Shown: piece after piece, positions 4,401 through 47,100 of the stretch | Numbering within the stretch: the first letter of the stretch is position 1 | Layout of the letters: every line of letters starts with the position of its first letter | Origin: Tribonema minus | Taxonomy: Eukaryota; Sar; Xanthophyceae; Tribonematales; Tribonemataceae | Direction: 5' to 3' | Length of the DNA stretch: 64,000 nucleotides | Assembly: GCA_017506865.1 (NCBI GenBank) | Contig: JAFCMP010000048.1 | Location: 124,001-188,000, forward strand | The notes under the pieces: generated by a model | What the model was told of the DNA's origin: nothing | What the model saw: the letters and a program-made list of their open reading frames with translations, nothing else | The model's database searches: none | Translations under genes and position numbers: made by a program

Positions 4401-7400
4401 GCGACGGCGAAGCGGAGCTGATCACCGGGTGGAGCACTGGTGCGGTGATTGCGCGCAACGCCGCCAACGGCAAGATCGTCTACAGGGACATGCTGCCGTC
4501 GCCTGTCGCGGTGAGTGCTGGACGTGAGCGGGGGTGGGGGGTATGTATACATGCAAGTGGATGTGTAGGTATGAGAGTGGGTATGTATACATGCCAGTGG
4601 GTAGGTAGGTATTGCAGTGGGCATAAGACGTCCTAGTGGGTACGTATAAATGCCAGTGGGTATGTGTGAACGCCAGTGGGTATGTATGTTTGACGGCGGG
4701 CATGTATGTATGACAGTATGACGGCACGCGCCATCCGCCCGCACGCATCGCGCAGCCCATCATCTCCGCAGCGCGCCGTTTACTACCGCCTCGCCCCCCC
4801 TGCTGACCAGCGCTGAGCACTGCTGCCGATGACCGCTGCATCACCTGCTGCTGCCTGCACGCACGACGTGCAGATCTACTTCAGCGACGCCTACCTTCAC
4901 CCGTGCTGAGCAGTATCGATGCTGAGCACTGCTGCATTTGCTGCTGCCTGCGCGTGCACGTGCCCCGCGCAGGCCATACTGAGCGCTGACTACACCACCA
5001 TGCTGAGCCGTGTTGATGCTGAGCACCTCTGCGCCGCGCAGGCCATCCTGAGTGCTGACTACCTTCTCACGTGCTGAGCAGTGTTGATGCTGAGCACCGC
5101 TGCATCCGCGCCTGCCTGCGCGCGCGCGTCGTACGGGCCATCCTGAAAGCCGCCTTCACACGTGCTGCGCAGTGCTGATGCTGAGCACTGCTGCATCCGC
5201 GCCTGCCTGCGCGCGCGCCCCGTGCAGGCCATTCTGAGCGCTGACTACCGCCTCAGCGGCCGCCACGAGCTGCTAGTGTGCGGCCAGGGGGGCGAGGTCA
5301 GGGGCTACGCGCCCGCCCCCCCCCCCTCCTCCTCCTCCACCTCCGCAGACCCCCCCACAGCTGCCCTCTCAAAGACCAGCAGCAAATCTGAGCGGAGGCC
5401 GGACAGGGGGGCCCTGGGGCAGGCGATAGACGAGCTGAACGCGCGCAAAGCGGCGCTGGCGGGGGAGCTGAGGGGGCTGGAGGAGGCGGCGAGGGCGCGC
5501 AAGGGGAGCGCGGGGGGGGGGCGGGGGGCGCGCAGCGGGGGGCATACCTGCCGACGCGCGGGTGACGGCGGCGGTGGCGCCGAGCCAGGTGGGGGGCGCG
5601 CGCGTGTGTGGGGTATGGGTAGGTATCAAGTGTGCGTGGTGTGTGTGCGTGCGTGTGTGCAGCAGGAGATGTGAGGTGGACGGTGGTCGGTCAGTCGCGG
5701 AATGTCGCCAACGCACGGGCGGCGGCAGCGTGGTGGGGGGCTGGGGTGATAGTCGCTAACCCTTACCCTAGTCCTAATTTAAACCCTGGCCCTAGTTATA
5801 ATCCTAAACGTGACCCTAGTCCTAATCCTGGCCTCGTGCCAGGAGGGGTGTGCGCGCGAGTTGTGTGAGGGCACCTGCAAACACCAAGTGGGGCGCCGGA
5901 TAATTGCACCTTGTGGTCGCCGTTGCACCCTAGCGCGCATCCCCTGAGCTGCGCAACGCTTTATACTCCTGTCATCAGTGCTGCTACCGATTTCCACTGC
6001 TTCACGCTGTGTACATAGACGTGCACGTGTCGTGAATGCTGCGCCGGGACGCGTGTGCGAGGTGTGCTGAGGACGGCAGAGCAGAGAGGATGCAACCGAC
6101 AGAGCATTGCTCAGCACGCGCGCCCCTGCCGACGCGTTCGTTGCCATGACTCAGATTAAGACTCACTCCAACCCCCCCCCCCCCCCCCCCCCCCGCTCAC
6201 ACAACGCAGGATGGCAGCGCTCTGGAGCTGACGCTGGCGCTGAGCGCTGCTGCTGACGCGTTCATCGCCACGACTCAGATTCAGACTCGCTCTGACACCG
6301 CCGCCTGCATTGTTGTTATGATCCATCATCACTATGATGCAGGATGGCAGCGCTCTGGAGCTGACGCTGGCGCTGAGCGCTGCTGCAGATGCGTTCATCG
6401 TCAGCGCCGTCGTGCTGGACCTGGAGGGCGGGGTGCTGGGCGCGGAGGCGTGCGCGCGCGCGCCCGCGGCGCCCGTCACCTCGCTGAGCATCGCGCTGCG
6501 GCCGCAGAAACTTCAAGCGGCGACGCTCAAAGTGCAGGTGAAACAAAAAACAGGTTGCGCGTCACCTCGCTGAGCGTTGTGCTGCGGCCGCAGAAACTTC
6601 AAGCGGCGACGCTCAAAGTGCAGGTGAAGCGAAGTGCAGTAGCTGTCGTGCGCGGCGCCCCATCGCCTCGCTGAGCATCGCGCTGCGGCCGCAAAACTTC
6701 AAGCGGCGACACTCAAAGTGCGGGTGAAGTTCAGGCGCTCGCATGTAGCCCATTCATGCGCGGGTTGAGAGCGTCTGCAGCTTCTGTGAGCTGCTCAGAC
6801 TGCCGTGGCCTCTTCCGTCTTGAAGCGCGGTGCTGCATCAACGCTCAATGCTGCGCCAGGGGACGCTGCGGACGCTGTGGACAAGTACCCGTCGACACTA
6901 CCCCCCCCCCCCCCCCCCCCCCCCCCATCCCCCTTAATATACCTACCCCCCCATCGACAACCCCCCACGCTGCGCGCGCAGGTCCACGTCAGCGCGCGCG
7001 GCACCCCCTTGCAGCTCTTCGTCCTCGAAACCGACGCCCACATCTCCAAGTTCGCCCCCTTCGTCCCCCTGCCCCCCGCCGGAGTCGCTGCCGCCCCCCC
7101 GCCCCCCTCGGGTCAGCTCACCTTCACCGTGCCGGAGCAGCCCGCGCGCGTGCTGCGCTGGCTGGAGGACGCGTTCCTGATCGCTGACGCGCGGCTGCTC
7201 GATGCTGCGGGCCCCGCGGAGGTGGCGGCGCGGTTCTGCGCGGTGGCGTGCGGCGCGGCGGGGGGGCGCGCGGGGGCGCTGCTGTGGGTGGGCGCGCGCC
7301 GCGCCGCGGAGGGCGCGCAGGTGCAGGTGCGTGTGACGCTCTGCGGGGTGTCAAAGTGCAATTAGAAGTAACTTCAAGTGTGCTGTGGCGCTCACACAAG

Positions 7401-10400
7401 CCCCCGTCTCAATGGGTGTGGTCTGCCAGCTATTTCAAGCCGGCCCCGCAAAGGGCACGTAAGTGCAGGCGTGTGACGCTCCGCGCGGTGTCAACAGCGT
7501 GCAACTCAAGTCTGTTGTGACGCTCACATTCGCGAAAGTGCAGGTGTGGGACTCTCCGCAAGGTGTCAAAGTGCAGCAGCAAGTAAATCCAAGTCTGTTG
7601 TGACGCTCACATCTGCCTCGTCATTGGTGTGTGGTTTGCAACTTCAAGCCTGCCCTGACACTCCCATGAGGCCGAGGGGTGCTGGGGGAGGGTTTCCTTC
7701 CCGGGCCTGGCCTGTCAATACCCAGGTGTCAGGCGACAAGGGCAGGACGATGCTGCGAGGCACACACAGAAGTGCGCGTGTAAACTGTATTGTTTCCGCA
7801 AGTGAAAGTAGTGCGCTTGAGCAAGCGCGGAGAATGGTAGGTATGCCGTGTACGGCATCACACCACTCATTGCGCAGCGTGACGCTCGAGCAGAGATTGT
7901 GTGCACAGTTCCCCAGCGCTTGAAGGATGATTGGGCACTTACTGGGTGCATGATAGATGGTTATGCACAAACACACCCAGGCGTCAGCTGCTCCTGTTAC
8001 CCTGCATGTAAACCTGCGCTTGCATGCGACTGCTACGGCAGATGAGGTGCTTTGACCACCACGGCGCGAATCATCTGCAGATGAGCATATGCATACGGTA
8101 TACAACGCAACATAGCATACCTCATGTGCGACTCCTGCGACAGGTGCGGTGCGACCGGCTAGACCTCGCGGGCGAGGTGGTGCAAGATCTGGCCACCTAC
8201 CTCAAGGTCAGTCAGTGCCTGCGGGAATTGATGGCGCGAGCGATGCACACACATCTTGCACTTTGAACAGACATTCTGGCAGTTCATGCAATCCGTGCAC
8301 ATGCCCGTTTGCAGTATTCACATGTACACCTCCATGAGACACCGCCTGTGCTCACGCTGCCGATCCTGAAAACGCCCGTGCATATCGACCGCGTCTGGTG
8401 GCGTGCGCCCCCTTTGTGCACACACCATACATACTTCAAACAAGCAATGCTTCTTTGCGCTCCGCAGGCGCCGTGCTGACACGACATTGCCAGTGTACGC
8501 AGTGCTTCCATGGTGCGCCGCTGACCCCAGCTGCATGCCGTTTCACCATGCAATGAGCGCGCACCTTACTTGTGACCTTGGAGGCGCCCCCGCTTCCCTC
8601 TGAACTCACCTACCGCCTGTCTGCAAATACGTACCCCCTTCATTAACATACACCCCCCCCCCAATTCGCGCCCCTCGCGCACGTCACCGAAGACCTTGAG
8701 GGCGCTCGCGATGATGCCCCCCCCCCCCCCCCTTCTCAACCTCCCCCCGCATATATGCATACATACCCCCTACATTGATACATGCCCCCAATCAGCATCC
8801 CTCGCGCGCAGGTCACCGAGCTGGAGTCCGTCGCTGACTTTCCTGACGAGCTGGGCGCGTTCCGCCGCTACATATGCATGCATATCCCCTACGTTGATAC
8901 CCCCCCCCCCCCCCCCCGCCCCCCCAATCACGCCCCTCGCGCAGGTCACCGACCTGGAGTCGGTCGCCGACTTTCCCGAAGAGCTGGGCGTATTCCGCCG
9001 CGTGCTCTCGTCGGTTGACGAGCTTAACGCGCTGCGCCAGCGGCTCGGCGCGGACACCGCCGACGTCACGCACGGCGTCAAGAGCCTGGTGGTGCGGGTG
9101 AGCCGTTGATGTGGCTTTGCGCTGTTCAGAAGTTGAAGTTGGAGTTGAGAAGCGGTGCTCCAACGGTCGACGCGTGCGACACGCTGCGCTTCGGGCCGAG
9201 CGCAGACGTCGGAGTGTATTTGCGCATTGCCGCGCATGAGGCAGTGTGGTCTCAGGCTTCGGACGCAATGGCGCTGGGTATTAACCTCAACTTCTGACTT
9301 CAACAGCTTGACGGTGTGGACCTCGCGTCTGTTTGGATCGTGACTTTGTGATGGCAGCCTTGCGCAGCAATTCTCAAGTACGCGCGCGCAAGCCGCTAAC
9401 TTCCACCTGCGACAAGCGCATCTGCTGCTGTGCGTCGCCGCTCATTTCGACTGCAACCGCAGTTGCACCGCCAGTCGCCGCCCGCAGCCCTAGAAGATGA
9501 GACACTGCGAGCCTTACTCATGGAAAAACCGTTGTGTGCTGCCCCCCAGGCCGAGGACGCCAGGATACTGGGCGACATGGGCGTCATGCGGCGCTGCTAT
9601 GCCGACCTCTACTCCCTCAATCAGCAGCTGCTGGCGGAGCACGCCAAGCGCGCCAACAACCACGAAGCGCTGCTGGCAGGGCTGAAGGAGGTGTGTGTGT
9701 TGACTCATACATGATGACTATGGCTGTGTGCTGCAGAGTGCTCGGATACTAGAGGTTGTCATGAGGGCCGGTGGAGGTGTCTGGTGTGCCGTAGCTGTTA
9801 CTGGCAGTTACTGGCAGTTGCGAGAACATGCGGGTGCTGAAAGTGACTCAAGGTGTCGATGTGCACTGCAGGTGCTACACAGACTGCGCTCTCTGCATTG
9901 CCGCTGCCCTGTACCACAGGGCTGCAGGTGAAGGCCACACCAGCATCAAATCAGCATTGAATACCTCACTGTCTATGTGCGCGCTACGGTCGGTACCGAG
10001 ATGCGTTGTATCGACAGCACCTGCTGTCGTACAGGCACCGAGATGCGTTGTACCGACAACACCTGGGCGCACGTCTCAGTACATTTGCCGAGGCCACACC
10101 AGCATCAAATCAGCATCGAACACCTCACTGCCTCAGTACATTCGCCGCGCCTGACGCCGCAAATCAGCATCGAATACCTCCCCTATGCCTCCTGCATTCA
10201 AGCGGGCGGCGCCGCTGCCCGTACGCCCCCTGCATCAGCACATCTCTCACCCCTCACTGCCTAAGAACATTCGCCGCACCTGACGACGCAGGTCAACGCC
10301 ATGATACAGCGCGGCGCCGGCCAGCATCGGCCACTTGCCACTGGGTTTCGTATTAGTATAGGGAGAAGGTCAAACCACCATCAAATACCTCACCGTCCTA

Positions 10401-10572
10401 CATCCACCCGCGCCCGACGTCGCAGGTCAACGGCATGATACAGCGCGGCGCCGGCCAGCGCGTCGGCCGCGCGCGCGCGCGCATCATCGGCGACTGCCGC
10501 GCGGCGCTCAAGGCGGGCCGCAGCGCTCAGCTCGTGGGCATCATCAAGCACGGCCAGAACACGGGTGTGTAG
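1411..10572 (+). CDS. BBS2: Bardet-Biedl syndrome 2 protein homologue (BBSome subunit)
   Basis: Thirteen exons: 1411-1483, 1580-1713, 2019-2177, 2750-2920, 3641-3880, 4370-4510, 5228-5588, 6343-6537, 6982-7326, 8144-8206, 8945-9097, 9550-9690, 10426-10572. The product, about 773 aa, matches BBS2 from end to end: DGKHPCL and AGKVLIHN in the first blade, [63 protein letters not shown] and GGEVRGY in the beta-propeller, then coiled-coil, GAE-like and C-terminal parts with [16 protein letters not shown] and [17 protein letters not shown]2 is a BBSome subunit carrying membrane proteins in cilia. The ATG at 1411 fits the family N-terminus. Exons 2 and 5 use GC donors. Exon 7 is 361 bp between phase-0 introns, so one base too many is present in a G-run near 5511-5540: a sequencing slip or a real frameshift. 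Introns carry exon-edge copies (listed separately). Confidence 0.93.
3908..3933. repeat. interstitial TTAGGG-type tract in BBS2 intron 5
   Basis: About four telomere-type units lie 28 bp past the GC donor of exon 5. A degenerate relative in the opposite sense (CCCTAGTCCTAA-like) lies at 5757-5831 in intron 7. Confidence 0.7.
4535..4715 (+). repeat. minisatellite in BBS2 intron 6
   Basis: About seven degenerate tandem units of 20-27 bp based on GTGGGTATGTATACATGCCA, starting just after the exon 6 donor. The unit resembles a run-on of donor-like GTATGT sequence. Confidence 0.7.
4866..5212 (+). repeat. tandem copies of the exon 7 acceptor region (BBS2 intron 6)
   Basis: Four decayed units of roughly 75-90 bp (about 4866, 4970, 5034, 5125) each carry a version of the exon 7 edge, CGCAGGCCATTCTGAGCGCTG, shown here shortened: CAGGCCATNCTGAGYGCTG. 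Each is followed by a GTGCTGAGCAGTGNTGATGC stretch. The true exon starts at 5228. Several copies keep the CAG acceptor. Confidence 0.8.
6172..6194 (+). repeat. poly-C tract before a decayed exon 8 copy
   Basis: A run of 23 C in BBS2 intron 7, immediately upstream of the acceptor of the exon 8 copy at 6205. It sits where a polypyrimidine tract belongs. Confidence 0.8.
6205..6275 (+). repeat. upstream copy of the BBS2 exon 8 start
   Basis: Near-identical to the acceptor and first 60 bases of exon 8 (from 6338), including CAG and the GATGGCAGCGCTCTGGAG start, then diverging. Separated from the true exon by about 70 bp. Confidence 0.85.
6559..6728 (+). repeat. two downstream copies of the BBS2 exon 8 end
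   Basis: 6559-6629 and 6655-6728 repeat the last 60 or so bases of exon 8 (6474-6537) with its donor. The first copy keeps GTGCAG|GTGAAG; in the second the CAG is CGG. About 95 percent identical by eye. Confidence 0.88.
6901..6926 (+). repeat. poly-C tract before BBS2 exon 9
   Basis: A run of 26 C, 55 bp upstream of the exon 9 acceptor at 6981/6982. Likely acts as, or near, the polypyrimidine tract. Confidence 0.85.
7327..7640 (+). repeat. tandem repeats after the BBS2 exon 9 donor
   Basis: Three decayed units starting near 7321, 7459 and 7533 share a GTGCAGGTGYGTGWGACNCT-like start, a GGTGTCAAAGTGCA core and a TGTTGTGACGCTCACA end. The first unit begins inside exon 9 and spans its donor. 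Confidence 0.7.
8807..8905 (+). repeat. upstream copy of BBS2 exon 11 (pseudo-exon)
   Basis: A CAG acceptor followed by sequence translating [19 protein letters not shown], against [19 protein letters not shown] in exon 11 (from 8945). It breaks off after about 60 bases into ATATGCATGCATA-type sequence. The copy and the exon both follow poly-C runs (8717-8732 and 8900-8917). No usable donor follows, so it should not be an exon. Confidence 0.85.
9931..10425 (+). repeat. tandem units filling BBS2 intron 12
   Basis: Units near 9931, 10091, 10150, 10250 and 10374 repeat CACACCAGCATCAAATCAGC / ATACCTCAC text followed by a CGCC(G)CACCTGACG acceptor-like end. The one at 10270-10330 continues into a copy of the first 40 bases of exon 13 (CAGGTCAACGCCATGATACA). 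Confidence 0.75.
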
Positions 10573-10970
10573 CGCGTGAAAGCGCGAGTCGAACGACGCG
10601 TGTGGGCGCATTGCACAAAGGGCGCATTGCACAGAGAGCTGCTGAGCTTCATGAAGCACGGCCAGCAACATGGGTGTGTAGCGCGTGAAACCGCGAGAGA
10701 CAACGCGCGGGGGGAGGATTGCGCGAGCGATGACGCGCGCGGGCGCACTGCACGGAGGGCGCATTGCACGCACACGCATTGCGCGAGCGACGATGCGTGC
10801 GGGCGCACTGCACGGACGGCGCGTTGCACAGAGAGCTGCTGGGCGTCATAGAGTGCGGCCAGAACACGTGCTCGTGACTGCGAGCGGCGCCGCGCGTGCG
10901 GGCGCATTACGGCACAGCCCCGATGCGGAGCTGGTGGGCGTCATGAAGTGCGGTCAACATGCGAGCGCAC
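10573..10970 (+). repeat. decayed tandem copies of the BBS2 terminal exon tail
   Basis: The last exon end with its stop (CACGGCCAGAACACGGGTGT) recurs at 10637-10700, 10831-10885 and 10926-10970, separated by GGGCGCATTGCACRNRGNGC linkers. The copies lie beyond the stop codon, so they are 3' UTR or flank. Confidence 0.82.
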
Positions 10971-14254: not shown

Positions 14255-15463
14255 TCATCGCCCGGTGGTGACGGCGAGCACGCCCTTCTCGCTGTTGCGC
14301 AGCGTGGAGTGCAGGTGCCGCTGCGCGCCGGTGGCGGGGTGCCGGAAGCGGTACGTGACCTCCGCCAGCTGGCCGAGCGTCGCCACCTTGTCGAAGGCGG
14401 CGCGCACGGCGGCGCGGTCGTCGGCGTGGACGAGGGCCATGAAGCCTCCGCCGACGATGGCGTCCGCGGCGTCGAGGGCGAGCAGCCGCAGCAGGCCCGG
14501 CGACGCGTACGTGAGCGGGTAGGAGCCGTCGGGCGCGGCGTCGTGCACGTGCATGTCGAGGGTCTCCTCCACGAGGCGGCGGTACGCGCGCAGCTCGGCG
14601 ATCTCGCTGCGCAGCGTCTCCTCCTCCTGCTTCTTCTTGGAGCGCCAGTTGCGCGAGTACTCCTTGTTGCGCTCCTTGTACCACGTCTGCCGCCAGTAGG
14701 GCTTGCGCTTGCGCTTGCCGCCGCAGGCGGAGTCCGGGTCGTCCTCCTCGTCCTCGCCGCTGAGGCTGCTGCCGTTGCGAGGGCTGCTGCCGCTGAGGCT
14801 GATGTCGCTGGGCGCGTCGATGGCGATGCGCTTGCGCGTGATGGCCCTCTTCTCGTCGCAGCCGTCGGAGTCGTCGCAGCTGGTGGTAGGCTCGTGCACG
14901 TAGTAGTGCTCGGAGGCGGCGGAGGCAGCAGACGAGAAGGAGTTTGCGAAGAGGGCGCGCGGTGCCTCCTCCTTCAGCTTGAGGCTGTTGCTGTTGTCGC
15001 CGGCGTCGCTGATGGTGATAGGGGCTGCAGCAGTGGGCTCGGGCACGATCTGCCGCTGTCGTTCAGGCTTGCGGCTCCAGCTGGCGGGAGGAGGGCTCGG
15101 GGTTGGGATGGTGGACTGCATGGGCAGTTGGCAGCTGGACATTGGCTGCTGCAGGAAAGCCGCTGCCGCCACCGCGGACGGCGGCAGCTGCGGCTGAGTG
15201 GGGAAGGGATAGAAGGAGGCAATGCTGGAAGGGAAAAACGGCGCGGACATTTGCATTTGCTGCTGTTGCTGGAGGATGCGGTGCTGCTGCTGAAGCATGT
15301 TCTGCCAAGCAAGCTGCAGCTCGCAGTCGCTGATGGCTGATAGGGTCTGGTCGAAGGCGTCCAGGCCGGCATCTGGCGTGCCCTGCAGGCCGCACTGCTG
15401 GCCGGCAGCGGCGCCGTAGGCGGCAGCGTCGTTGAAGGGCATGCCTTCCCAGGTAGTTGCCAT
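14255..15463 (-). CDS. bZIP-PAS transcription factor
   Basis: Intronless 402-codon frame. Residues about 60-80 are Gln-rich. A basic region near 250-285 reads KPYWRQTWYKER then NKEYSRNWRSKKK, which keeps the bZIP N-x7-R spacing. A leucine-zipper-like helix with ETLRSEIAELRAYRRLVEE follows. Residues about 305-400 form a PAS fold: GLLRLLALDAADAIVG, FMALVHADDRAAV, EVTYRFRHPATGAQRHL. The layout, bZIP followed by a sensor of the PAS family, recalls aureochromes. I see no Cys in a GXNCRFLQ motif, so it is not a LOV photoreceptor. It should bind DNA as a dimer; the PAS ligand is unknown. It is divergent from the GCIP-like gene. A TGCGTCAC site in the shared promoter would suit autoregulation (inference). 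Confidence 0.8.
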   Translation of the reverse strand: MATTWEGMPFNDAAAYGAAAGQQCGLQGTPDAGLDAFDQTLSAISDCELQLAWQNMLQQQHRILQQQQQMQMSAPFFPSSIASFYPFPTQPQLPPSAVAAAAFLQQPMSSCQLPMQSTIPTPSPPPASWSRKPERQRQIVPEPTAAAPITISDAGDNSNSLKLKEEAPRALFANSFSSAASAASEHYYVHEPTTSCDDSDGCDEKRAITRKRIAIDAPSDISLSGSSPRNGSSLSGEDEEDDPDSACGGKRKRKPYWRQTWYKERNKEYSRNWRSKKKQEEETLRSEIAELRAYRRLVEETLDMHVHDAAPDGSYPLTYASPGLLRLLALDAADAIVGGGFMALVHADDRAAVRAAFDKVATLGQLAEVTYRFRHPATGAQRHLHSTLRNSEKGVLAVTTGR

Positions 15464-19498: not shown

Positions 19499-19952
19499 GA
19501 TGGTGTATCTCTCAGGCCGTGTAGAGGCTGTGCTGAGCGGGGCGGGACCGAACTTGATGCGTCACGGGGCGGGACACCACCTTGCAAGGTCGATGTTGAG
19601 CTGTAAGTACGCTTGCGTCTGTCTCGCTGTGTGTGCGTGTATTGTGAGGGACGACAACGCGATGGATCAAGCAAATTGAGGCTGAAAGGCCATTGAGAAG
19701 GATAAATCTGGCCCTTTCAGGCCAGTTGCTCCTCAGTGCGGCAGTGCTCAGGCATCGTTCCCACTGAGTATGTAGACCCCCCCGTGTAAAAATGGCTCAA
19801 GCCCTGATTGGCTCGGCTCCCGGACCTAGCTGCGAGCGTAGCGCTCAAGGGGTACTACTTCAAGCCCTTGGCAAAGTTCAAGTGTTCGCCGAACAGGTGC
19901 AGGCTAGCGCATCCTCTGCCCTTGCTGGAGTACATCAGCTACTGCTGATTTC
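19499..19952. promoter_or_regulatory. duplicated divergent promoter
   Basis: Keeps both GC boxes, TGCGTCAC and the inverted CCAAT box of 15464-15917. It could still fire and give short transcripts or decoy binding of the bZIP factor (inference). Confidence 0.5.
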
Positions 19953-33800: not shown

Positions 33801-36800
33801 TGACAGCTGTGCGCGTTGCACCTGGGTTTCATGACCGCGCCCATGGCGGGCGGTGCAATGACACATACATATTGTGCTGCGCCGCGTCGTGAAACAGCTA
33901 GTTACGGAGCAGTCAAGGTGCAGCCTGCACAGGCATAACGCAGATCAACCTGCAACGTTACAATATATTGCACCTTATACTGGGGCAGCTTTAGCTGAAT
34001 ATTTCATGTATAATGGTAAAGCAACACTAGTTATTTATGATGATTTATCTAAACAAGCATCAGCTTACCGACAAATGTTAAGGTGCTTGCTGCACGGAGC
34101 AGCGCTGCAGGGCTGTGCCAGTTGCACGGCGCCAGTGCTGCAGATGGGCTTGCAGTAGCACCATATGCACTGCTCGTGATGCAATGGTTTTGGCGTACAT
34201 CATTCACACTGCGCCTGACAACACCTGCCCTTGTTGCACGGGCCCGTTTGACGAGATTGGCGATTCTGTTTTGCCTGTGTGCTGCGCTGAGCGCTGCCGC
34301 AGACAAGTGTCATACATACCCCTGACCATCTCGTGCCACATGTTGTTCCTGAGACACATGGGGAGACGTAGTGTATACTGCGCTGACCGCTGTTGCAGAT
34401 GCGGGTGCCACTAATGAAATGTGTGGTGACCTCTGCGACCCAGAACGCCCCGGCTCTGCCCCTCCCTGACTCCGCTTGTATGTGCTATGATCAGTTGTTC
34501 ACAATGATGAAAGTGACTCGTCATAACATGTACTTCAAGTAGAGTACCTGTCAAATTGCGCAGTCGCCTCTGTTGGTGCTTTCCCGAGCACTGCTGCGCC
34601 TGCGCGTGGTGTCAATAAACCAATAAAAGCTCTGCCTGTCGCTGACTCTGACTTAGACTCGTCATTTGTGCGCTGCGCCGAGGCGCGCTGCAGCTGCGAG
34701 CGCTGCTGCCCATCGCCATGCCGCGCAAGATCACGCGCGAGCAGCGCTTCAACGAGGGCCTGGAGAACGTGTGGGGGTTTGCGAGTGCAGACATGTGCGT
34801 GGGCATCAGCGACATCAAGGAGGTATGTATGTATATGTGTACATATGTACTTGGTACACAAGTACATTGTTTCCGTATGGGGCTTTGCAAATGCCAACAT
34901 GTGCTTGGGCGTCAGCGACATCAAGGAGGTATGTGCAACGTGCAGAGTTGCTAACCCTAACCCTAAAACCTAACCCTAACCCTCTTTCCCCGCACAGGCA
35001 GATGTACACATTGAGGTGACCAATGCCACCGAGAACCAACGCAAGTCCTGTGCTGCGAGAATTGAATGTAATGTAGTCTGTGCAGGCAATTGTCATTGCC
35101 GTAACCCGTCAAGCGAGCAAACGGCAACAGTTTAGTCCACAAAATGCCATCTGAATGTACAGTTAGGTTAGGCAGGTATCAAGCGACGCCTTGCAAGCGC
35201 CGCGGCGCGTCAACGGTTTACAGGCACAAGCCCCGGCTTTGCTGAGTGCGCTGCACAGCGCCTCAGACCGACAGCCTCTCGTTCATCAAGGACATCACCA
35301 CGGCCGTGAGGGCGCTCAGGACTCCTGAACGCAGCATACGCATTCATACCTACGCCGCCTGCTGCCTTGCTGAGCGCTGCGCAGCTGCGCGCCACCGAGG
35401 GCGTCACCACGGGCCTGAGGGCATACAGAATCACTGAACACAGCATATGAACACACACCTACGGCGCATATGAATACCTACCTACGCCCGCCTGTTGCCG
35501 TGCTGAGCGCTGCGCAGCGCCTCACGGCCAAGGCGACAGTGCATAGAATCACTGACCGCCGTCAACACATGCCTACGTCGCCGCTTTGCGGACCGCACTT
35601 GTTGATCGCCACGGGCTCGAAGGCGCACACAACCGGTGAACGCAGTACATACATACATATCCACGCCGCCTGCTGCCTTGCTGAGCGCTGCGCAGCACCT
35701 GCGGCCCATCGAGGGCGTCACCACGGGCCTGAGGGCATACAAAACCACTGAACGCAGCATATGAATACACACCTACGCCGCATATGAATACATACCCACG
35801 CCGCCTGCTGCCTTGCTGAGCGCTGCGCAGCGGCTGCGCGCCATCGAGGGCGTCACCACGGGCCTCAAAGGGTCCCTCGTGCCCTGGGTGCAGCTTGGTC
35901 TGCAGAACAACCTGCTGCCGTTTGTGCCCACGTCCGTGTGCAAGCAGCTCGCGGGCGACGTGTTTGGGCGCCACAGCGTCGTCTTCTCCAACGTGCCCGG
36001 GCCGCCCATGCCGGTGGCGTTCGGCGGGCAGGTCATCAAGCGCATGCAGGTACTTTGACAAATTTGAGTTCCGTCTCGCGTCGATGTTTGCACTTCTCTG
36101 AGGTATGTGTGGCTGATGGTGACACTCAATTGTCAGATATGGTGGCGTTGGACGGGCCGGTCATCAGGCGCGTGCAGGTATTGACATGCCTCCTCGATGG
36201 ACTACCATGTGGATTGTCTGTATGTTTGGCGGCATGAACCAGATGTCACCTGTTGGTGCAATGCTTGCTGTAGATTTTTGTTGCGCCGGCTTGAAAGTTC
36301 ATCAGTGCGGGACGCCCGCATTGCTCTCAATGGTGGCGTGCGGAGGGCACCCTGCAAGCACCGTGCAAGCATGGCGGCTCTTGGGCCGAGGAAGGCTGCT
36401 ACTGTGACATCATGTTGATATGATGATGATGATGATGAACAACGCCTGCTTGCTCTCATCTCGCGCGCCAGCGGAGCGCATGCGCGGTACAATCCTCTTA
36501 TGCAGGTGAAGTACGTTGCATTGGTCCTGTAAACTGCGCTGAGTGGCGCATGCTGCAGCGATCGACTGGCATTGACGCATGCTTCGCACCTTGAGCGCTC
36601 CAAGCATCGCCGCGCGCGCCGACGCGGCGCTGCACATTTCCGTCACCGTTTGAGCATGGGCACACCCGAATGATCAGATGTATGATGGTATCTGTACGCA
36701 CCAAGGCCTGATACATGTCTCTTTCTTGCGCCGCTCTCGCTGCAACGCGTCGTTGTGTCTGTCTGCGGCAGATGCTCTTCCCCAACATCATCATGCAGGT

Positions 36801-37795
36801 GAGGCACGCTACAACTTCACGTGCAGCACTGAACTTCAACAAAGTCGTCAATGTCCCAGTGTGAGGGCGCGCGCAGATTGAACGCATGCCGACAGTGTGC
36901 CGCTTGCCTGCTTGAAACAGGTAAACTTGTGTCTCTGTGAGTGTTTGAAGCTCGGAAGCACACAGCATCGAGGTGCAGCCACACGAGTGTTCTCAGTAAG
37001 GTGCTGGGGTCCTTGTGCCAGCCTGATGTGCTGTCTTGCACCACTTCGCTCCTCATACATCAAGCTTTAGCTCATGCAGAGAGGCGAACTCGGTCAAATA
37101 AGCAGCCAGTAGTGGAGTCAGCGTTCAATACTGAGTCGGCGCTGATGCCACGCCGATGTTGTCCGAAGTCATTGCTAAATGACGAAGTGCTGCTCATTCT
37201 GCACATGGTCAGGCAGGCAGGCCTGCTTGTGTGACTGGCCGTCCCTGAGGTCATGAGCATTTGATGCAGTTTGTAATTTGAAGTTGCAGTAAATAACCTA
37301 AAGTGGCAGTGGCCTCTGCAGCGCTCAACCTTCGTGCAATTACGACAACCGTTGCTACAAGTGCCACAGCGTTTCTCCACCTCATGCAGCGCCTCCAAGC
37401 CTTCGTGTGCAGACCAATCAGGGCACAGTTGCCCCGCGGAGTGAACCGCTTGGGCCGACTCGCTGCAGTGCTCAGTCATCTGCAGCGTGCCCCCTGCAGC
37501 AGCGCTCGCCTCCACCACCACTCTCCTTCACTCCTTACGTCACACCTCTCTCTCTTTTTCTCCGACCCTCCCCCCACGCGCATGCGTGCAGATTGGCATC
37601 CTGTCGTACCAGGGCAGCCTCATGATGAACTGCGTCGCGGATGCGCGGTCGTGCACGCCGTCGGAGCTGCGCGCAGCGTTTCTGGCGGAGCTGCGCGCGA
37701 CGTGCGACGCGTTCGGCGTTAACGCTCCCGCCAAACTTCAAGGCATCGAGGCGCAGTGCGCGGATCTGGACGCGGGACGGCCGCTGGCGGCATGA
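27806..37795 (+). CDS. WSD: wax ester synthase / diacylglycerol acyltransferase (WS/DGAT)
   Basis: Eleven exons: 27806-27929, 28025-28177, 28957-29144, 30317-30443, 31193-31320, 32109-32264, 33487-33591, 34694-34822, 35831-36049, 36772-36798, 37592-37795. All joins keep frame, giving 519 aa. Residues 24-41 are a membrane anchor ([16 protein letters not shown]). PLWHINVIE leads to the catalytic HHxxxDG ([12 protein letters not shown]; His187-His188, Asp192). [43 protein letters not shown] and [15 protein letters not shown] are the later WS/DGAT motifs in the expected order. The enzyme transfers acyl groups from acyl-CoA to fatty alcohol or diacylglycerol at the ER, making wax ester or triacylglycerol. 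Exon 10 is a 27-bp microexon (MLFPNIIMQ). Introns hold exon-edge repeats, telomere-type tracts and a plastid DNA insert. Confidence 0.9.
28698..28830 (+). repeat. (CA)n microsatellite, WS/DGAT intron 2
   Basis: Imperfect CA repeats interrupted by CTTTG every 15-25 bp, about 130 bp before exon 3. Confidence 0.9.
30501..30724 (+). repeat. two downstream copies of the WS/DGAT exon 4 end
   Basis: 30501-30560 and 30661-30724 copy the last 50 bases of exon 4, which encode the catalytic HHxxxDG, with the donor ATAG|GTA. In both copies the sequence has drifted: the second His codon is CAG in the first and AAT in the second. Confidence 0.88.
30981..31172 (+). repeat. two upstream copies of the WS/DGAT exon 5 start
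   Basis: Units of about 95 bp (30981-31080 and 31081-31172), each made of a CTCAGG acceptor, a copy of GCGTCATTGATCACGTCATG and a TTCATGAATTTG end. A third, partial unit leads into the true exon at 31193. Confidence 0.88.
31495..31590 (+). repeat. degenerate TACACTGT/TACTGTA tandem tract
   Basis: About ten units of 8-11 bp based on ACTGTACTRTACACTGT, in WS/DGAT intron 5. Partly self-complementary (TACTGTACAGTA). Confidence 0.7.
32424..32532 (+). repeat. downstream copy of the WS/DGAT exon 6 end
   Basis: Repeats 32245-32345: the exon end (ACCTGGTGAAGAAGCTCA), the donor and about 70 bp of intron. The copied donor reads AGGGTGCGC. A telomere-like GGGTTAGGGTTGAGGG follows both copies. Confidence 0.82.
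33026..33290 (+). repeat. interstitial TTAGGG-type arrays in WS/DGAT intron 6
   Basis: Three clusters (33026-33070, 33137-33186, 33250-33290) of TTAGGG units mixed with TTAGGA and TTAGCG. They are inside an intron and far from any chromosome end visible here. Confidence 0.85.
33936..34078 (+). other. nuclear plastid DNA insert (NUPT), atpA fragment
   Basis: An AT-rich island of about 143 bp in GC-rich intron 7 of the WS/DGAT gene. It translates without a break as [20 protein letters not shown], then [20 protein letters not shown] and SAYRQM, the central part of the chloroplast ATP synthase alpha subunit. The intact frame and base composition indicate a recent transfer. Imperfect 16-bp direct repeats flank it (AAGGTGCAGCCTGCAC at 33915 and AAGGTGCTTGCTGCAC at about 34080), hinting at repair-linked insertion. 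It is fully intronic and does not alter the host protein. Confidence 0.92.
34877..34934 (+). repeat. downstream copy of the WS/DGAT exon 8 end
   Basis: GTATGGGGCTTTGCAAATGC...GACATCAAGGAGGTATGT copies the last 50 bases of exon 8 (34770-34822) with its GAG|GTATGT donor. Using this donor instead would need a second acceptor, which I do not see. Confidence 0.88.
34951..34984 (-). repeat. interstitial telomere-type tract (CCCTAA)
   Basis: Five units of TAACCC with one ACCTAA variant in WS/DGAT intron 8. The orientation is opposite to the arrays at 33 kb. Confidence 0.85.
35225..35812 (+). repeat. four to five upstream copies of the WS/DGAT exon 9 start
   Basis: Units of 90-190 bp starting near 35235, 35360, 35490 and 35680 repeat GCTGAGCGCTGCGCAGC, a GAGGGCGTCACCACGGGCCT-like exon part, and a GAACGCAGCATATGAATACA spacer. 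The true exon begins at 35831. The oldest copy could translate [18 protein letters not shown] but has no donor after it. Confidence 0.88.
36140..36181 (+). repeat. downstream copy of the WS/DGAT exon 9 end
   Basis: GTGGCGTTGGACGGGCCGGT plus CATCAGGCGCGTGCAG|GTA matches 36015-36052, donor included. Confidence 0.85.
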
Positions 37796-39709: not shown

Positions 39710-41260
39710 TCAAAAGAGGCTGGAGAGGATGTCTACATCCAGATCATCCAGCAGCTTCGCATCCGCCCAGTGCGCAAGGTCGCCGCCGCTTTCCCCCCCG
39801 CCGTAGTGCCCCCCTCCGCCGCTGCTGCTGCTGCCGCCGCCGCTGCTGCCGCTGCTGCCGCCGCCGCTGCTGCCGCTGCTGCCGCCTCCGCAGCTGCCGC
39901 CGCCGCCGTCGGGCGCTGCCTGCGAGGCGCTGGCAGCGCCAACGACGGCGGCCGCGCTGGCTGCGGCAGCTATCTTGTGGAAGTCCATTTTGACGTCGAC
40001 GCCGCACGCATCGCCGCCTGCGAGAGTCGTCACTGCCGGCTCATGCGCCACCTGCGGCTGCTGCGGCAGCTGCCAGGCAGCGGAGTGCGCGGCGGCAGCA
40101 ACGGCGGCGGCTTCCGGCCCTTCCGAGCGCGCGCGCTTGCGTGCGGGCGCGGCGTCCGGGGGGATCGGCATGGCAGTCCTTGTGGGGGACGGGGAGATCC
40201 CCCTGAAGGCGTCCGCCGCCGCCGCAAGCTGCAGGCTCGGGTCCCAGGGGGGCAGCGCACTTGAACTTGAAGTGTCCGCGTCGGCGATCTCGATGACGAC
40301 CTGCGTGATGACGCGCGCCCCCATGGCCTTGACGGCCTTTGTAACCGTCACCTGGCGCTGGGACGGCTGCCCCTCCAGTTCGGGCCCTACCAGGCCCGCG
40401 ATCGTGTGCCAGAGCTTGCGCGACATCTCGGAGTGCGCGGCGCAGCGCCTGCGCGGCGCGGCGCAGCCGGGGACACAGACGCCGCCGCCGTCCGCGCCGT
40501 TGAGCTCCGGCTCCACTTGGGGGGCGATGCCGTAGTGCGCCAGGTAGACCTTGCCGGTGGGGTCTTCGCAAATGCCGAGGATCTGGCGCTCTTGCGGGGT
40601 GAGGTGCTCTATCGCGAAGCGAGTGCCGAAGCCGAGGCCCCTCTTGATGAAGGTGTCGAAGAAGACGGTGCGCTCGTATCTGCCCTCCACGCATCTGCGG
40701 GGTGCAAGGGGGCAGCGCAGGATCGATGAGAGTCGCCGGCTCGTAGACCGAAAGGCTAGATGAGAGTCGCGCTGGGCGAGACAGGGTTTCAAAAAAGAGG
40801 CCTCAACGGCCATGTGAAGCTCCGCCTCATGAACTGGAAAGCAACTGGCCAGATAGATCAGCATACCAGCCGTGGCATGCCAGGAGGAAGAGCTCACGTA
40901 AGGGATGTATACACAAGATACATGCACAAGCATGACGTTCACCTTACGAGCTTTTTGGATCCTGACCAGCTGGTGTGAAACAGGGCCTTGCGAGCAACAG
41001 GCGCCCGCTCCAGGGCTGTCGACGTCAGGCCCTCCTTCTCGAACTGCCTGGGGTGTCTTTGCAGCAGCCAGCGGTACGCAGAGCGCTCGTAGTTGTACCT
41101 GTGTAGAACGCAAGGCAAAAAGCAACAGAAAAGTTGCTTTAGAGCGGGCCAGCGAGAGCACACCAGCTGCACGACAGGCAGCAAGAGGCGGCTGCCCAAA
41201 TGCGTGCTGCAGGGAGTAGGCACAGCACCTTTTGATCGGAGTGGACGCAGCGGACGCCAT
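39710..41260 (-). CDS. hypothetical nuclear-type protein, 390 aa
   Basis: Three exons, 41260-41229, 41098-40943 and 40694-39710. Both introns are phase 2 and GT-AG, and the join gives a continuous domain: ASTPIKRYNYERSAYRWLLQ, FEKEGLTSTALERAPVARKA, CVEGRYERTVFFDTFIKRGL, FAIEHLTPQERQILGICEDP and GKVYLAHYGIAP (about 1-145). I do not recognise the family. A second conserved-looking segment is VTVTKAVKAMGARVITQVVIEIADAD. The rest is Ala/Gly/Ser-rich with a basic cluster (ARKRAR) that could be a nuclear signal, and it ends in an acidic-hydrophobic tail, LLDDLDVDILSSLF, as in activation domains (inference). An upstream in-frame ATG at 41314 would add 18 residues. Function unknown; a transcriptional regulator is a guess. 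Confidence 0.7.
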   Translation of the reverse strand: MASAASTPIKRCCAYSLQHAFGQPPLAACRAAGVLSLARSKATFLLLFALRSTQVQLRALCVPLAAAKTPQAVREGGPDVDSPGAGACCSQGPVSHQLVRIQKARKVNVMLVHVSCVYIPYVSSSSWHATAGMLIYLASCFPVHEAELHMAVEASFLKPCLAQRDSHLAFRSTSRRLSSILRCPLAPRRCVEGRYERTVFFDTFIKRGLGFGTRFAIEHLTPQERQILGICEDPTGKVYLAHYGIAPQVEPELNGADGGGVCVPGCAAPRRRCAAHSEMSRKLWHTIAGLVGPELEGQPSQRQVTVTKAVKAMGARVITQVVIEIADADTSSSSALPPWDPSLQLAAAADAFRGISPSPTRTAMPIPPDAAPARKRARSEGPEAAAVAAAAHSAAWQLPQQPQVAHEPAVTTLAGGDACGVDVKMDFHKIAAAASAAAVVGAASASQAAPDGGGGSCGGGSSGSSGGGSSGSSGGGSSSSGGGGHYGGGESGGDLAHWADAKLLDDLDVDILSSLF

Positions 41261-41314
41261 GTTCAGGCTACCCTGCTCGATCGATCTTTTGGCGGAAGCC
41301 GATTCCTCCTGCAC

Positions 41315-43056
41315 GCCACCGGGACGCGTATCGAACCTGCTTCAGTGCTTCGAGATCAGCGTGAAGCGCTATTATCTGAACCACCGCCCCAGATAGCCTG
41401 CGCCGGCTATGTGTGCGTCGTGCGAAGAACAATCAGAATATAGATTGATGTTATTAGCGCGCTTCAAATCGCTCGATCTTTGGTGGCAGGTTGAAGTGCC
41501 ATCGGTTGTGTACACGTTGCACACCGGACGCAGTGACTGGGACAACAGCAGCAGCAGCCTCTGGAGTTCTCAAGGCAACAGCACTGCGGTGGCGTCCTCC
41601 CCTGCACCACACATCATGAGCAACGGTGAGTGTTGGCGCCCCGAAGGATCTTTGATCAAGGCCAGGAGGACAAGAAGGAGCTGCACACACGCACGCCGCC
41701 CACGCGGCGTGGGCGAGCGAGGAAGTTTTTTAAGTCGGCTTCAACCGGCTGTCTCGTCAACGTGCCCCACTGACACTCGCCGACACTCTCCTGCTTGCCT
41801 CCGACGATCACAAGGCTCAATGTGTGTGCCGTCAATCCCTCAGCATGGATGCTGGCCGCCTGTGCTCGCCGCCTGCTCAATGAGCTCACTTCGCGCTCAC
41901 AGCATCGGGAGCGCGTGCTCTAGTGCGAGCACCGAGCGCTGTAAATGCCGTTGTGCATTTCATTGACCAGGTCAGCGCAGAATCATAATTACTGATTGTC
42001 AGCAACGACTGAACCGACTGCCTTGAAAGTTACATCTCTTCAGGCGCGGGTACGCGTACGCTGACACGCAATAGTCTCTGCAACGCTTGCAACATCGCTG
42101 CACCATCTGTCTCATCCTTAGCAGCAGCCGCGGTGGGCACCACGCCGCGTGCATCACTTGAAGTGAAGGCAAGTCAACAATGGCCTTGATGGCCTATGGT
42201 CAACAATGCACATTGGTTTGTCCCAATGGGACTGATTTGTCTAACCTCAACATCACTGGTCCAACTTCAACATCACACTTTTGTTAGGACAAGGGAGAAC
42301 TGTGTGTGTGACACCTGAATCAGAGCTTTATCTGCACGTTGACATGCATTGTAGACGTTGTAGACGTAATGATGCATGCACCTTAAGTCAGTAATGTCAG
42401 CTCTGGCTGCGCGCTTTAGCGGAACCAAAGGCAGAGAGGCAGGTTCCTAGCAGCGCAAGAACGGCACAAACTCTGTGGTGGCAGTGGTGGCAATGCTGAT
42501 CGCTTAGCTTGATTTGTACCATGTGTATTAACATTCAACACATGGGGAACGTGTACAAATAGCACCAGCGCCGAACTGAGCTGCCTGGGGCTGTGCTGCA
42601 AGAAATGCGCGTGGGCGGGCAAAACCTGACCTTGTGCCTCAAGTTGCTGGTTCAACTGTAATCCATGATGATGCCGCTTGCAGTCCACATGGTAGGGGAA
42701 TGGTAAGCGGCTAAATGCAGCAGTGTCCAGGAAGCTCCCACAACTGTGCAGCCTGGTCCCTCAGGTGCAGCTTCTCAACACCACCAGTGCGGTGTCAGCT
42801 GTCGCGCTCGCCAAAAGCATACACAGCTGCTGCGCGTGGCATATATGCGCGCTGCCGCAGCTGGTTGAGTGCTGCCATAAATACGCCCTTTAAGCGCCGT
42901 GACCGCTGCGACAGCACTCCACTCCCCTCGAACACTGGCTCCGCTGGAGCGGGGCACGTGGATACATGCCTACCCAGAGTGCGCCACAGTGGTGCGCCGC
43001 ATTGCGCGCGTCAGTCGAACCGCGTGCTCTTCTGGCCGGCGCCGATGGGCCTGTAG
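41315..43056. other. 1.7-kb intergenic stretch
   Basis: No gene recognised. It holds the promoter side of the 390-aa gene and the 3' flank of the RAP gene. Near 42176-42280 there are short repeats of CAACATCAC and AATGG type. Nothing else stands out. Confidence 0.4.
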
Positions 43057-44109
43057 GTGACAGTCACCACAGAGGGCAGCATGAGCACCATTCGTTCAAT
43101 GTGTCAACATTCAACTCAATTGGCTTCCGATCAAACATGGCCCAAGGGAGCTCTAGTGACTGGGCTACACGCTTTGCTGTTGTCATGCTTTCGCGTCTGA
43201 CCGTTGTTGCAGCTGTTACACCACTGCACACATCCCCACATTGGCACTGCATCAAGTAGACTACACGATGCCTGTATGCACTCCTGCTGGATCTAGGGCA
43301 CAGCTACAATACACGTGCCATCAAATCAGCAGCAGCAGCAGGAGCAGCAGCATCCAACCACAGGCGCTACTGACACGAGACTGAGCAGCTGCGTCACCTG
43401 TAGGTGCTCCAGTCCCGTGCGCCGAAGTGTATCGTGCGCGTGATGCCCAGCTTGCGCTGCAGGTAGCGCTTGCGCTCCATGCTAGCCCAGAAGGGGATCC
43501 TGTCCCAGTGATAGAAGGGCACCTGTGCGAGAGCACATGTGCGTGTGTGCATTGCGCGATGTCGCGCGCGCATTAGTGATGCGGGTCAGCAGATGCGTCA
43601 TCGACGCCACCAGCGCGCGCTGCGCATTTGAGCAGTGCACATGGCTGTGGCACTGCTGGTTACACAATCTGGGTCCCTGTCCCTATTGCTCAAGGTTCGG
43701 TCTTAAGGATCAAGGTCGGTGAGAGCAACTATAGAGGGTACCATGAGCACTACGTGTCTGATATGCCAACAGTTCACTCAATTGGCGCTTGATTGAACAA
43801 GTGACGGCATAAGCGAGCCCTACATAGTATTTGGGCTGCACACTTTGCTGTTGTCATCTTTCGCGTCTGACTGTTATTGCAGTAACACCACCGCACACAT
43901 CCCCTCATTGGCACCGTATCAAGTAGACCTACACGGCGCCTGCTCTGTGTCACCAACACAGCCAGCGCACGCTCTGTACAATGCCTCCATGCACTCCTGC
44001 TGGATCTAGGGCACGGCTGCAACACACGCGCCATCAAATCAGCAGCAGCAGCACTAGCAGCAGCAACCCAATCACAGGCGCTACTGACACGAGACTGAGC
44101 AGCTGCGTA
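43057..44109. repeat. 350-bp direct repeat in the RAP gene 3' flank and its last intron
   Basis: 43057-43394 (3' flank, ending at the stop) and about 43713-44109 (intron 5) align over most of their length, at perhaps 75-80 percent identity. Shared blocks include CACTCCTGCTGGATCTAGGG, CCATCAAATCAGCAGCAGCA and GCGCTACTGACACGAGACTG. The repeat places the exon 6 region between the two copies, as expected of a tandem duplication across the exon. Confidence 0.85.
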
Positions 44110-47100
44110 GCGCAAAGGATCCCCCCACAACCCCCTAGAGACTCGCGCTCACCTGCACCACCGTCCACCCCAGCTGCGCCAGTATCCTGTGCTTGAGCAC
44201 CGTGTGCCCCAGCGAGCGGCGCGAGTTGCAGGTGAAGTGGCCGGGGCCGTCAACTTCAATTGCAACACGCAGCGGCACGTGGTCGTCCTCGCTGGGCGAC
44301 GCTTGCTGAGCACTACTGTCCTCGTTGTTGTCGTTGTCGCTCGACATCAGCCTCAGCCCGACGCCCACCACCTGCACTCAGTCACACGGCCACGCAAGTG
44401 GTGTTTGTTGAGAAACGGTGACGGCAGCGGGTGCTGCTGCGGCACCACCAGTCGCAGCCGTCGCCGCCTGAAATTGGGTTCTGCAGTACCAGGCACACCT
44501 GTTTCTGTAGCGGCCTGTGCATCAACTCCAACAAGCAAGGAGGGGCTAAGAAGCATGGTAGGTACCAGCACGCGTGAGCAGGTGCATGTACAGCGCCACA
44601 GTACCTCAATGTCAATGTCCTGCTCGCTCTCGTTGTGGCCCATGAGCGCGAGACACCTCAAAATTGTGCTAGGGGTACGTATCAGCACGAGCGGAAAGGT
44701 ATATCGACAGCGCTACATACCTCAATGTCAATGTCGTGCTCGCTCTCGTTGCGGTGCTCGACACCCATAAGCGCGAAAGTAGTGCAGCCGGACTGACTGC
44801 TAGGGGTACATGTCAGCACGAGCGGACACGTATACATACAGGCCTATGATACAGCGCTACATACATACCTCAATGTCGATGTCGTGTTCGCTCTCGTTGC
44901 GGTGCTCCACGCCCATGAGCGCGAGGCACTTGGAGACGTCCAGGTGGCGCGCGCTGGACTGCTTCTCGCGCCGCTTCTCCGCGCGCCACGCGTCGCGCGC
45001 CGACTGCAGCAGCTCCCCGTCCACGCCGCGGAACGCCTCGGGAACCCTCTCCGCGAACACCAGGCACACCTGGTGCACCTGGTGCAGCTCGCGGTCGGGC
45101 AGGGGCCCCATGCCCTGCGGGGCGGTCGATGGCATATATTTATAATAAGTGGCACGGGGGGCGGGGGGGGGGGGGGGGGGCACCAGCTGCAAAGATGGGC
45201 GTCATTGCAAGTAATAGCAGCAGACATGGGCATCATTGCAAGTCCATGGCAGTGCACAACCATACAGATACTGGAGCATGTGTGAAGCGGCACCAACGGC
45301 ATATATGGGCATCATTGCAGATACACAGCAGTACGCAGTCATACAGACACTTGAACGAACAGCAACAACGCCTTTCCCTCTGTGACGCTGCCACGCGACC
45401 ACCCCGCACAGTCAGCGACGGAGGCTCGACCGAGTGCTATGCAGCAGCGCTCACCTGCACCGTCGTGAGGATGGCGTTGAGTAGCTGCGCGTCCACAACG
45501 TCGAGCACTGCCATGGACCACGCCATGTTCACCAGCTCCTGGCGTGTGAACTTGCGCGCCGCCAGCTGGCGGTTGACGTGCCGCGGCAGCTCCCGCAGCA
45601 GCTCCTCATCGCTAAAGTCCAGCTGTTGTTGCAGTTGCGGATTGAGGGGTGAGCGGGTCAGCGTGGCTGCCCATTTTAAGTGATCACCACAATGCTGCCG
45701 GCATTTCGGCATCGTGTAATGTGACAGGACATGCTTCACTGTGACAGTTTCGTGCGTCTCTGAGGCAGCTGTCCTGTGCAGTGCCTGCATCACTGCGGCC
45801 GTCGCTGTGACACTACAGTACACCTGTGCAGTGCCTGCATCACAGCAGCCGCCTCTGTGACACCACAGCACACACGCGACGCCCCTGCCATCCGATAGCA
45901 TGCGCCGGCAACATGGTCTTCTGCGGCGACGCCCCCACTTCAACTTTCAAGCACGCAGCTGCTTCGCAGCGGCGCGTCACACTCGCCTTTGCCATGGCGA
46001 GCAGCAGCGCGTTGAGCTCGCGCGAGCTGAAGGCGTCCAGCTGCAGCAGCGACGCGCTGCAGATGCCGCGCAGCAACGGCTCGCTGTCGTAGCTGAGCCG
46101 CGCCATGGCGGTGGCCAGCTGCGCCAGATCGGGGGGGCGGAACCGCCGCAGCGTCGCCAGCACCTGCGGCTCTATGGCCTGCATTTGGACAGGAGCGTGC
46201 GCAAGGAAGGCGGCACGAGTGTTGTAGCTCGCTTCTTCTGTGTAGGAGAGTGTCAGCGGCAGTAGGCCTGCAGCTACAAAAGCTGTGGCATGTAGCGGGC
46301 AGTGAGTAGCTCAGTGCCTGCGGCAGAGATGCCGATGCACAAGGGTGCCATTTGCCGACTGCTCGTTGACCATACGACATGGCAGTGGATGTGATGCAGC
46401 GCAGAAGGCGTGCTCTGTGATGCATACTGCTGTGCAGTCCTGAACACTGGGCGGGTACCGTCAGGAATGTCTGTGGGGATGTGCACTGGGACTAATGCGT
46501 TTTCGTTCAAATGTGATGGGAGCAAATGTGCCTGCTGTCGCTTCTCAGCAAGCCCTGGTCTGATACATGTTGTGTTCTGCAACACGTCAGTCAAAGTAGC
46601 TGAGATCGGAAGAGGTGAGGTGGCTGCTGGTGAGAAACCAATGCACACTATGGAGTGCGATGGTCTACACCAGCACCAATCCCACTCGGTCACCCATAGC
46701 TTACAGAAGTCCATGTGCTGAGCCTTGTGCAAGTTTGACAGGTGCCCACCACCATGTACAACACAAGCACACACTGTGCAGTGCCTGTATGTACAAATGC
46801 AAGGTAGGTATGTACGTGCGCCCGCGCTGGCACCCACCTGCTGCAGCAGCTCCACGGCGCACGGCTGCAGCGTCCAGCGAGAGTCGCTCATGTGGCTGAA
46901 CGCCCACGCCAGCATGCTCAGGTCCTGCGGCAGCGCGCGCACGCCGCCGCCCGCGCGCGCCGCGCCCGCCGCCTGCGCCTTGAACGCCCCCGCCAACGCC
47001 TCCATGAGCGCCTGATTATAGTGGTCCGCCGAAGACAGCGCCCAGGCGGCCGTGCAGAGCTCCTTCATCGCCATGTCCGCCACGCGCGGCAGCAGCGCCT

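Follow-up and report, generated by a model that had tools for sequence, protein, structure and literature searches.

Tandem copies of exon edges in adjoining introns: possible fossils of local duplication sorted by selection and splicing

Results

The DNA analysed here is a 64-kb stretch of contig JAFCMP010000048.1 of Tribonema minus (positions 124,001 to 188,000; hereafter the window), and the subject of this work is a series of arrays in its genes in which the edge of an exon is repeated, together with its splice site, in decayed form within the adjoining intron. All counts come from this single window and a single haplotype; the window was picked as striking, and the rates may not hold genome-wide. 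Gene models were obtained with a purpose-written gene finder trained on the window itself, and Pfam was used for naming. The BBS2 gene (642-10572, forward strand) has 13 exons in the working model and encodes a joined protein with the Pfam BBS2_N, Mid, GAE, pf, and hp domains. The other two main hosts of arrays are a WS/DGAT acyltransferase gene (28932-37795, forward strand, 9 exons used; Pfam WS_DGAT_C, WS_DGAT_cat below cut-off) and a RAP/FAST gene (39710-47503, reverse strand, 8 exons; Pfam RAP and FAST_1). Two further gene-finder models are an LPA1/DUF3493 gene with Pfam support (48141-52525, forward strand) and the end of a gene on the reverse strand (62060-64000), which we take to be HSP70 from its sequence. 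These five models, with 35 introns and hence 70 splice junctions, were used for all junction statistics. Two boundaries, the BBS2 exon end at ~5588 and the WS/DGAT exon start at 34657, leave the frame unsettled and may be wrong; both are free of arrays. Unit lengths, exon overlaps, array extents, and the lengths added to 'ancestral' introns were read by hand from alignments.

The copies are local, direct, and specific to exon edges. Among repeat pairs no more than 1 kb apart and scoring at least 38 bits, 50 were direct and none was inverted, and eight block shuffles yielded none; a more sensitive scan at the same threshold gave 57 direct pairs, again with none inverted and none in the shuffles (n = 3). 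The first-pass annotation had proposed aligning each intron with its two flanking exons and comparing the result with mispaired exons and introns. When this was done for the 35 introns, the last 60 bp of the upstream exon scored 1138 against their own intron and 822 (sd 29.5) against mispaired introns, and the first 60 bp of the downstream exon scored 1135 versus 842 (sd 29.6). On neither side was any of 5000 permutations as high (z ~10 on each). No excess was obtained for the exon interior 70-130 bp from the junction against the own intron (711 vs 723 and 736 vs 724), and none that was clear for reverse-complemented exon edges against the own intron (P = 0.18 and 0.08). Most of the signal came from the half of the intron next to the exon edge, whereas that in the distant half was marginal (P = 0.02 and 0.01).

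At the level of single junctions, 10 of the 70 had copies scoring above the null maximum of 45, which was derived from 1856 pairings of exon edges with introns of other genes. At two more, 5228 and 32264, the exon parts fall in the null range and longer alignments support the copies, giving 12 solid junctions; three others (7326, 50299, and 51886) are weak, with short or poor exon overlap. The earlier estimate of at least twelve affected exon boundaries is thus borne out, except that the RAP gene, named as the source of several, contributes one only (44869). With extents set by hand, the arrays account for 17% of the intron sequence of these gene models (4114 of 24739 bases). Some introns are indeed packed with copies, as had been suggested (e.g. 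35306-35830); the introns as a whole are not.

Copy units are mostly 90-180 bp long and comprise 5-73 bp of exon and ~20-159 bp of intron. The exon parts of 15 strong copies have a mean identity of 0.90 (710/788 columns). Over the adjoining 40 bp of intron, copies showed 0.71 matches per base, compared to 0.36 in unrelated introns, and 10 of 13 testable copies exceeded the 95% level of unrelated introns. Matches per 40 bases were used here because the identity over aligned intron columns (371/449 in 13 of 15 copies, two degenerate ones being dropped) was unusable, unrelated introns giving 0.755 by the same measure. The copies resemble a minisatellite in being head-to-tail, same-strand, and local, with two arrays lacking a recognisable intron part (c14 and c16, see below), and they resemble junction-spanning internal duplications in carrying the exon edge with its splice site at the 12 solid and 3 weak junctions and the adjoining intron in 10 of 13 copies. 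Exon-edge copies within the adjoining introns are real. Their reported decay with distance held by score at four of six multi-copy junctions, a weak trend.

In the BBS2 gene, the array at 4806-5255 consists of about four decayed copies of the acceptor and the first ~28 bp of the exon from 5228 (unit ~70-91 bp), the exon part alone being in the null range. At 6120-6403, the acceptor and the first 61 bp of the exon from 6343 were copied (58/61, unit ~133 bp), and an older partial copy is also present. In the array at 6465-6729 (c4), the exon to 6537 is represented by two copies of its final ~67-73 bp and donor (63/67 and 64/67). In the weak array at 7301-7655, the donor region that follows the exon to 7326 was copied twice, with an exon share of only 6-26 bp. 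At 8653-9001, the acceptor and the first 57 bp of the exon from 8945 were copied (50/57, unit ~133 bp), with an older fragment at 8653, and at 9932-10459 the units measure ~130-160 bp, the last one being the acceptor with ~40 bp of the exon from 10426 (39/41). The array at 10529-10960 (c9) had been taken for copies of a donor site. Instead, it spans the stop codon (10570-10572) and does not lie at a splice junction: up to three copies of the BBS2 coding end follow downstream, the nearest with a copied stop codon, and the unit joins the coding end to 3' flanking sequence instead of exon to intron.

In the WS/DGAT gene, the last 50-65 bp of the exon to 30443 with the donor GT occur in two copies (30386-30755), as do the acceptor and the first ~53-60 bp of the exon from 31193 (30977-31245, unit 92 bp). 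At 32245-32589, the last 20 bp of the exon to 32264 were copied with ~150 bp of intron, the exon part alone again being in the null range. The array at 34768-34934 (c14) repeats the last 55 bp of the exon to 34822 and GTATGT (47/55), and the intron past that is unrecognisable. At 35284-35865 (c15), the intron 35306-35830 consists almost entirely of ~110-135 bp units, each ending in the acceptor and ~35-42 bp of the exon from 35831. The array at 36013-36186 (c16) repeats the last 37 bp of the exon to 36049 with the donor (32/37), the intron being unrecognisable past ~11 bp. In the single RAP array (44557-44929, reverse strand), the final ~56-61 bp of the exon 45114-44869 and the donor GT were copied twice. 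In the LPA1/DUF3493 gene, a weak copy of the acceptor and ~29 bp of the exon from 50299 (50141-50327) and a weak repeat reaching 5 bp into the exon from 51886 (51771-51890) were found, both on the forward strand.

Tandem repeats were also observed away from exon edges: fully within introns (4542-4717, 45181-45354, and 45773-45888), between predicted genes (56470-57639), and inside the BBS2 exon at 3730-3764, where a perfect (100%) tandem duplication with an 18-bp unit, in frame by length, represents a recent small coding duplication. Telomere-like repeats occur in introns at 33025-33293, 34951-34983, and 5758-5829, one intron having three blocks ~110 bp apart.

The claim that splice dinucleotides are kept in many copies was confirmed. 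GT or AG was found at the exact extrapolated position in 16 of 21 copies reaching the junction, a share for which the identity of their exon parts predicts 0.78, and in 13 of the 14 scoring above the null. By score, 10 of the 25 listed copies are in the null range, including seven of the 21 used for the dinucleotides, one of which runs off the intron end. Among 20 hand-picked decoy sites, GT or AG lay within 6 bp (8 bp for two RAP ones), which is not rare by chance over such a width, and the real site was equal or stronger in 19. Use of any of the 20 would lead to a frameshift or an added stop, the stop counts assuming introns at codon boundaries save for one decoy checked in its own phase. 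Neither the retention of the dinucleotides relative to the neutral expectation nor site strength gave a signal of selection for or against decoy sites. The decoy dinucleotides are neither purged nor clearly protected, and the decoys look neutral. As splicing at these decoys would disrupt the reading frame, we infer that the cell must mostly use the splice site nearest to the exon.

Elsewhere in the window, the gene finder predicted a PAS-domain gene (reverse strand), a GCIP-like gene in a fused model with a bacterial-PH and VTI1-like v-SNARE stretch (forward strand), and a reverse transcriptase (reverse strand), all with Pfam support, and two additional small gene models. In the predicted models, GC content was 0.679 in exons versus 0.562 in introns. 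Taken by themselves, this coding GC and the presence of a cilium gene and a photosystem-assembly gene would suggest a green alga. Of the 35 predicted introns, 29 are in phase 0, four in phase 2, and two in phase 1, and this phase-0 share looks unusually high. A 1-kb duplication (15054-16066 and 19090-20101; 98% identical, 4 kb apart) has a first copy that takes in the 5' ends of the PAS and GCIP genes and the space separating them. A second pair of 1-kb direct repeats (54729-55748 and 58865-59866; 89% identical, 4.1 kb apart) encloses a part with local repeats (56470-57639 and 58503-58747). Both pairs were considered as long terminal repeats and rejected, as no duplicated target bases were seen by eye, and no Pfam match was obtained within the inner part of the second pair. 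No locus related to the genes of the window was confirmed among the viral contigs or the bacterial and archaeal genomes searched.

Discussion

We consider it somewhat more probable than not (probability roughly 0.55) that the arrays are relics of ordinary local tandem duplication on which selection and splicing then acted. The copies lie on the same strand at exon edges, their intron parts are less alike than their exon parts, and their frame-breaking decoys are nearly intact. In the proposed sequence of events, a segment of ~90-180 bp would be duplicated head to tail, and further units might be gained later in the manner of a minisatellite. A duplication within an exon would usually break the protein and be lost. 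A duplication across an exon edge would leave one copy coding while the other ends up as intron, or beyond the stop codon; an intronic copy would be spliced out and then decay, presumably as neutral sequence. For such an event to be silent, the spliceosome would have to go on choosing whichever of two similar sites lies nearest to the exon, which is what pairing of splice sites across exons would predict. Duplications may also begin more often in GC-rich exon ends. Because duplications at a junction or stop codon can be silent and those inside exons would usually be purged, arrays at exon edges are expected without any mechanism acting on the junction itself. Several observations support this reading. 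Only direct local repeats were found, with no inverted pair at 38 bits or above; splice dinucleotides are kept about as often as exon-part identity predicts, and the real site is mostly at least as strong as the decoy; tandem repeats occur also in introns, between predicted genes, and inside a BBS2 exon; and the array c9 has the BBS2 stop codon in its copied edge, so that such arrays do not require a splice site.

A second set of observations weighs against this reading. If only coding-neutral events are counted and placed at random, 0.26-0.30 of long-unit arrays are expected to cross a junction. In simulated decay with one copy under constraint, crossing arrays were 1.33-1.41 times easier to see, a ratio integrated from the simulated curves, which raises the expectation to at most 0.38. 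The observed share was 15 of 20 (P = 8e-4). With the weak arrays dropped it was 12 of 17 (P = 0.006), and with the weak arrays counted as intronic 12 of 20 (P = 0.036). The five intron-only long arrays are those at 4542-4717, 33025-33183, 45181-45354, and 45773-45888 and a repeat pair shared by two RAP introns. Three of them are doubtful, namely the short-unit array at 4542-4717, the telomere-like one at 33025-33183, and the non-tandem RAP pair, and leaving these out gives 15 of 17 (P = 2.5e-5) or 12 of 14 (P = 3e-4). Furthermore, the exon overlap is capped at ~73 bp (P = 9e-4 under uniform placement). Finally, three of the 13 copies, namely c14, c16, and the nearer of the two c4 copies, had a first 40 bp of intron that matched no better than unrelated introns, while the exon part was 85-94% identical. 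As the intron part is unrecognisable although the exon part is well kept, plain tandem copying does not readily explain c14 and c16. The excess at exon edges, the overlap cap, and the copies without recognisable intron are all left unexplained by ordinary duplication sorted by selection. The idea that duplication is centred on splice junctions may still have some merit: selection alone predicts arrays at exon edges, yet the junction excess goes beyond geometry and detection bias. Selection and detection bias probably account for much of the exon-edge position, not all of it, and duplication itself may be biased toward exon edges.

These same points favour a targeted process, in which a feature of the boundary, such as the GC step, a nucleosome edge, or breaks linked to transcription or splicing, would raise the local rate of duplication. 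The junction excess after both corrections, the limited exon overlap, and the copies made of exon edge and splice motif without recognisable intron all fit such a process, as does the higher GC content of exons. However, one array sits at a stop codon, and the sample comprises 20 arrays from one selected window, with counts that hinge on three weak arrays. Short-unit arrays (10-49 bp) likewise show no junction preference: according to our reading of the Tandem Repeats Finder table, none of nine intron loci crosses a junction, although this is a test of little power, with only ~5% expected to do so by our estimate. Of these nine loci, 4542-4717 and 33025-33293 are also among the intron-only long arrays and 1714-1762 adjoins a doubtful junction, and two loci inside c15 were left out. 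That exon-intron boundaries are hotspots of tandem duplication in this lineage, steadily feeding exon-edge copies into introns, is accordingly a tentative proposal, for which we see perhaps one chance in four.

It is unlikely that the introns themselves were born by tandem duplication of coding sequence (the AG/GT model), beginning as copies of joined exon edges. The notion that the copies generally serve as raw material for new introns did not survive: over 35 introns, the similarity of intron ends to the opposite exon edges was marginal when unanchored (P = 0.049 and 0.041), and anchoring the comparison to the splice sites removed it (P = 0.17 and 0.59). Most arrays contain genuine intron sequence, so the intron was there before the array. 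The WS/DGAT intron 30444-31192 is a weak candidate. Its 3' end resembles the end of the upstream exon (anchored score 38, rank 1 of 35; 1 of 1190 mispaired scores as high), its 5' end resembles the start of the downstream exon (score 19, rank 1 of 35; 63 of 1190 as high), and none of 1190 mispaired combinations matched at both ends. Against this, the signal does not clearly recur in its inner copies, which rank 2 and 17 on one side and 2 and 19 on the opposite one, and as we read the alignment, some of the matching bases lie in sequence that came from the other exon.

We regard it as quite improbable that selection maintains the duplicated splice sites as decoys that regulate or buffer splicing. 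The exact dinucleotide in 13 of 14 above-null copies, and a GT or AG near all 20 picked decoys, might be read in this way, but the latter is not rare by chance, overall retention is near neutral (16/21 vs 0.78), and only one of the 20 decoys is stronger than its real site.

An origin from a transposon or introner family is no more credible. Two neighbouring RAP introns do have ~340-390 bp in common (43053-43394 and 43715-44108; 72-75% identity), beginning a few bases past one donor. This shared sequence is not derived from an exon, unlike what the earlier statement that copies always derive from the exon beside them would imply. At E = 1e-3, low-complexity tracts were the only further matches to the junction arrays within the window. 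The alternative put forward by the first-pass annotation, local repeated duplication rather than transposition, is supported by copies that are same-strand, gene-local, well kept in their exon parts, and mostly accompanied by adjoining intron. Least probable is an assembly artefact of mis-joined repeats: tandem repeats are known to trouble assemblies, but the strong copies differ by ~5-18% from the exon, some with indels, and from one another, unlike duplicated reads, and the coding exons stay intact.

Minisatellites consist of head-to-tail units that gain in copy number and are private to a locus. The arrays in the window share the head-to-tail, locus-private units and differ by being anchored on a constrained coding edge. 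Internal gene duplication, reportedly described by Gao and Lynch in 2009, copies exon-intron structure within a gene; the copies described here hold only part of an exon, mostly ~20-73 bp, frequently occur in several units, and decay within the intron.

In Chlamydomonas reinhardtii and Volvox carteri, tandem repeats with units of 1-50 bp are densest in introns and near intron-exon junctions (PMC3887541). Our arrays are likewise enriched toward intron ends, whereas their units are mostly 90-180 bp, and the parts of that study covered here do not mention an origin from exon edges. Duplications carrying splice sites are also shared with intron gain by tandem duplication, as exemplified by an intron of a potato RdRp gene that was made by a junction-spanning tandem duplication (PMC4974935), a mechanism that a review presents as the only one of intron gain demonstrated in vivo (PMC3443670). 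In contrast, the copies in the window lengthen existing introns, leave the coding sequence unchanged, and show no general sign of intron birth. Introners (PMC9860276) and repeat-rich Chlamydomonas introns (PMC4938644) are dealt with in further work. A search confined to open-licence papers turned up no description of introns with arrays of copied exon edges, and within this literature the pattern seems undescribed so far.

The exon-edge arrays represent a countable source of intron growth, amounting to 17% of the intron sequence in five gene models. For gene finders applied to such genomes, they provide numerous near-perfect decoy exon ends. A silent outcome needs choice of the exon-nearest site. 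This fits pairing of splice sites across exons, in contrast to the pairing across introns, or intron definition, that a Volvox study advocates for both Volvox and Chlamydomonas (PMC4378016). In the core volvocine algae, introns are strikingly long; the mechanism behind this is described as not known and as likely ancient (PMC8226300). If exon-intron boundaries were indeed duplication hotspots, this would explain the unusual intron length of the volvocine algae, an explanation that applies only if the alga of this window belongs to that group, and the boundaries would work like a conveyor, making introns longer and providing spare splice sites.

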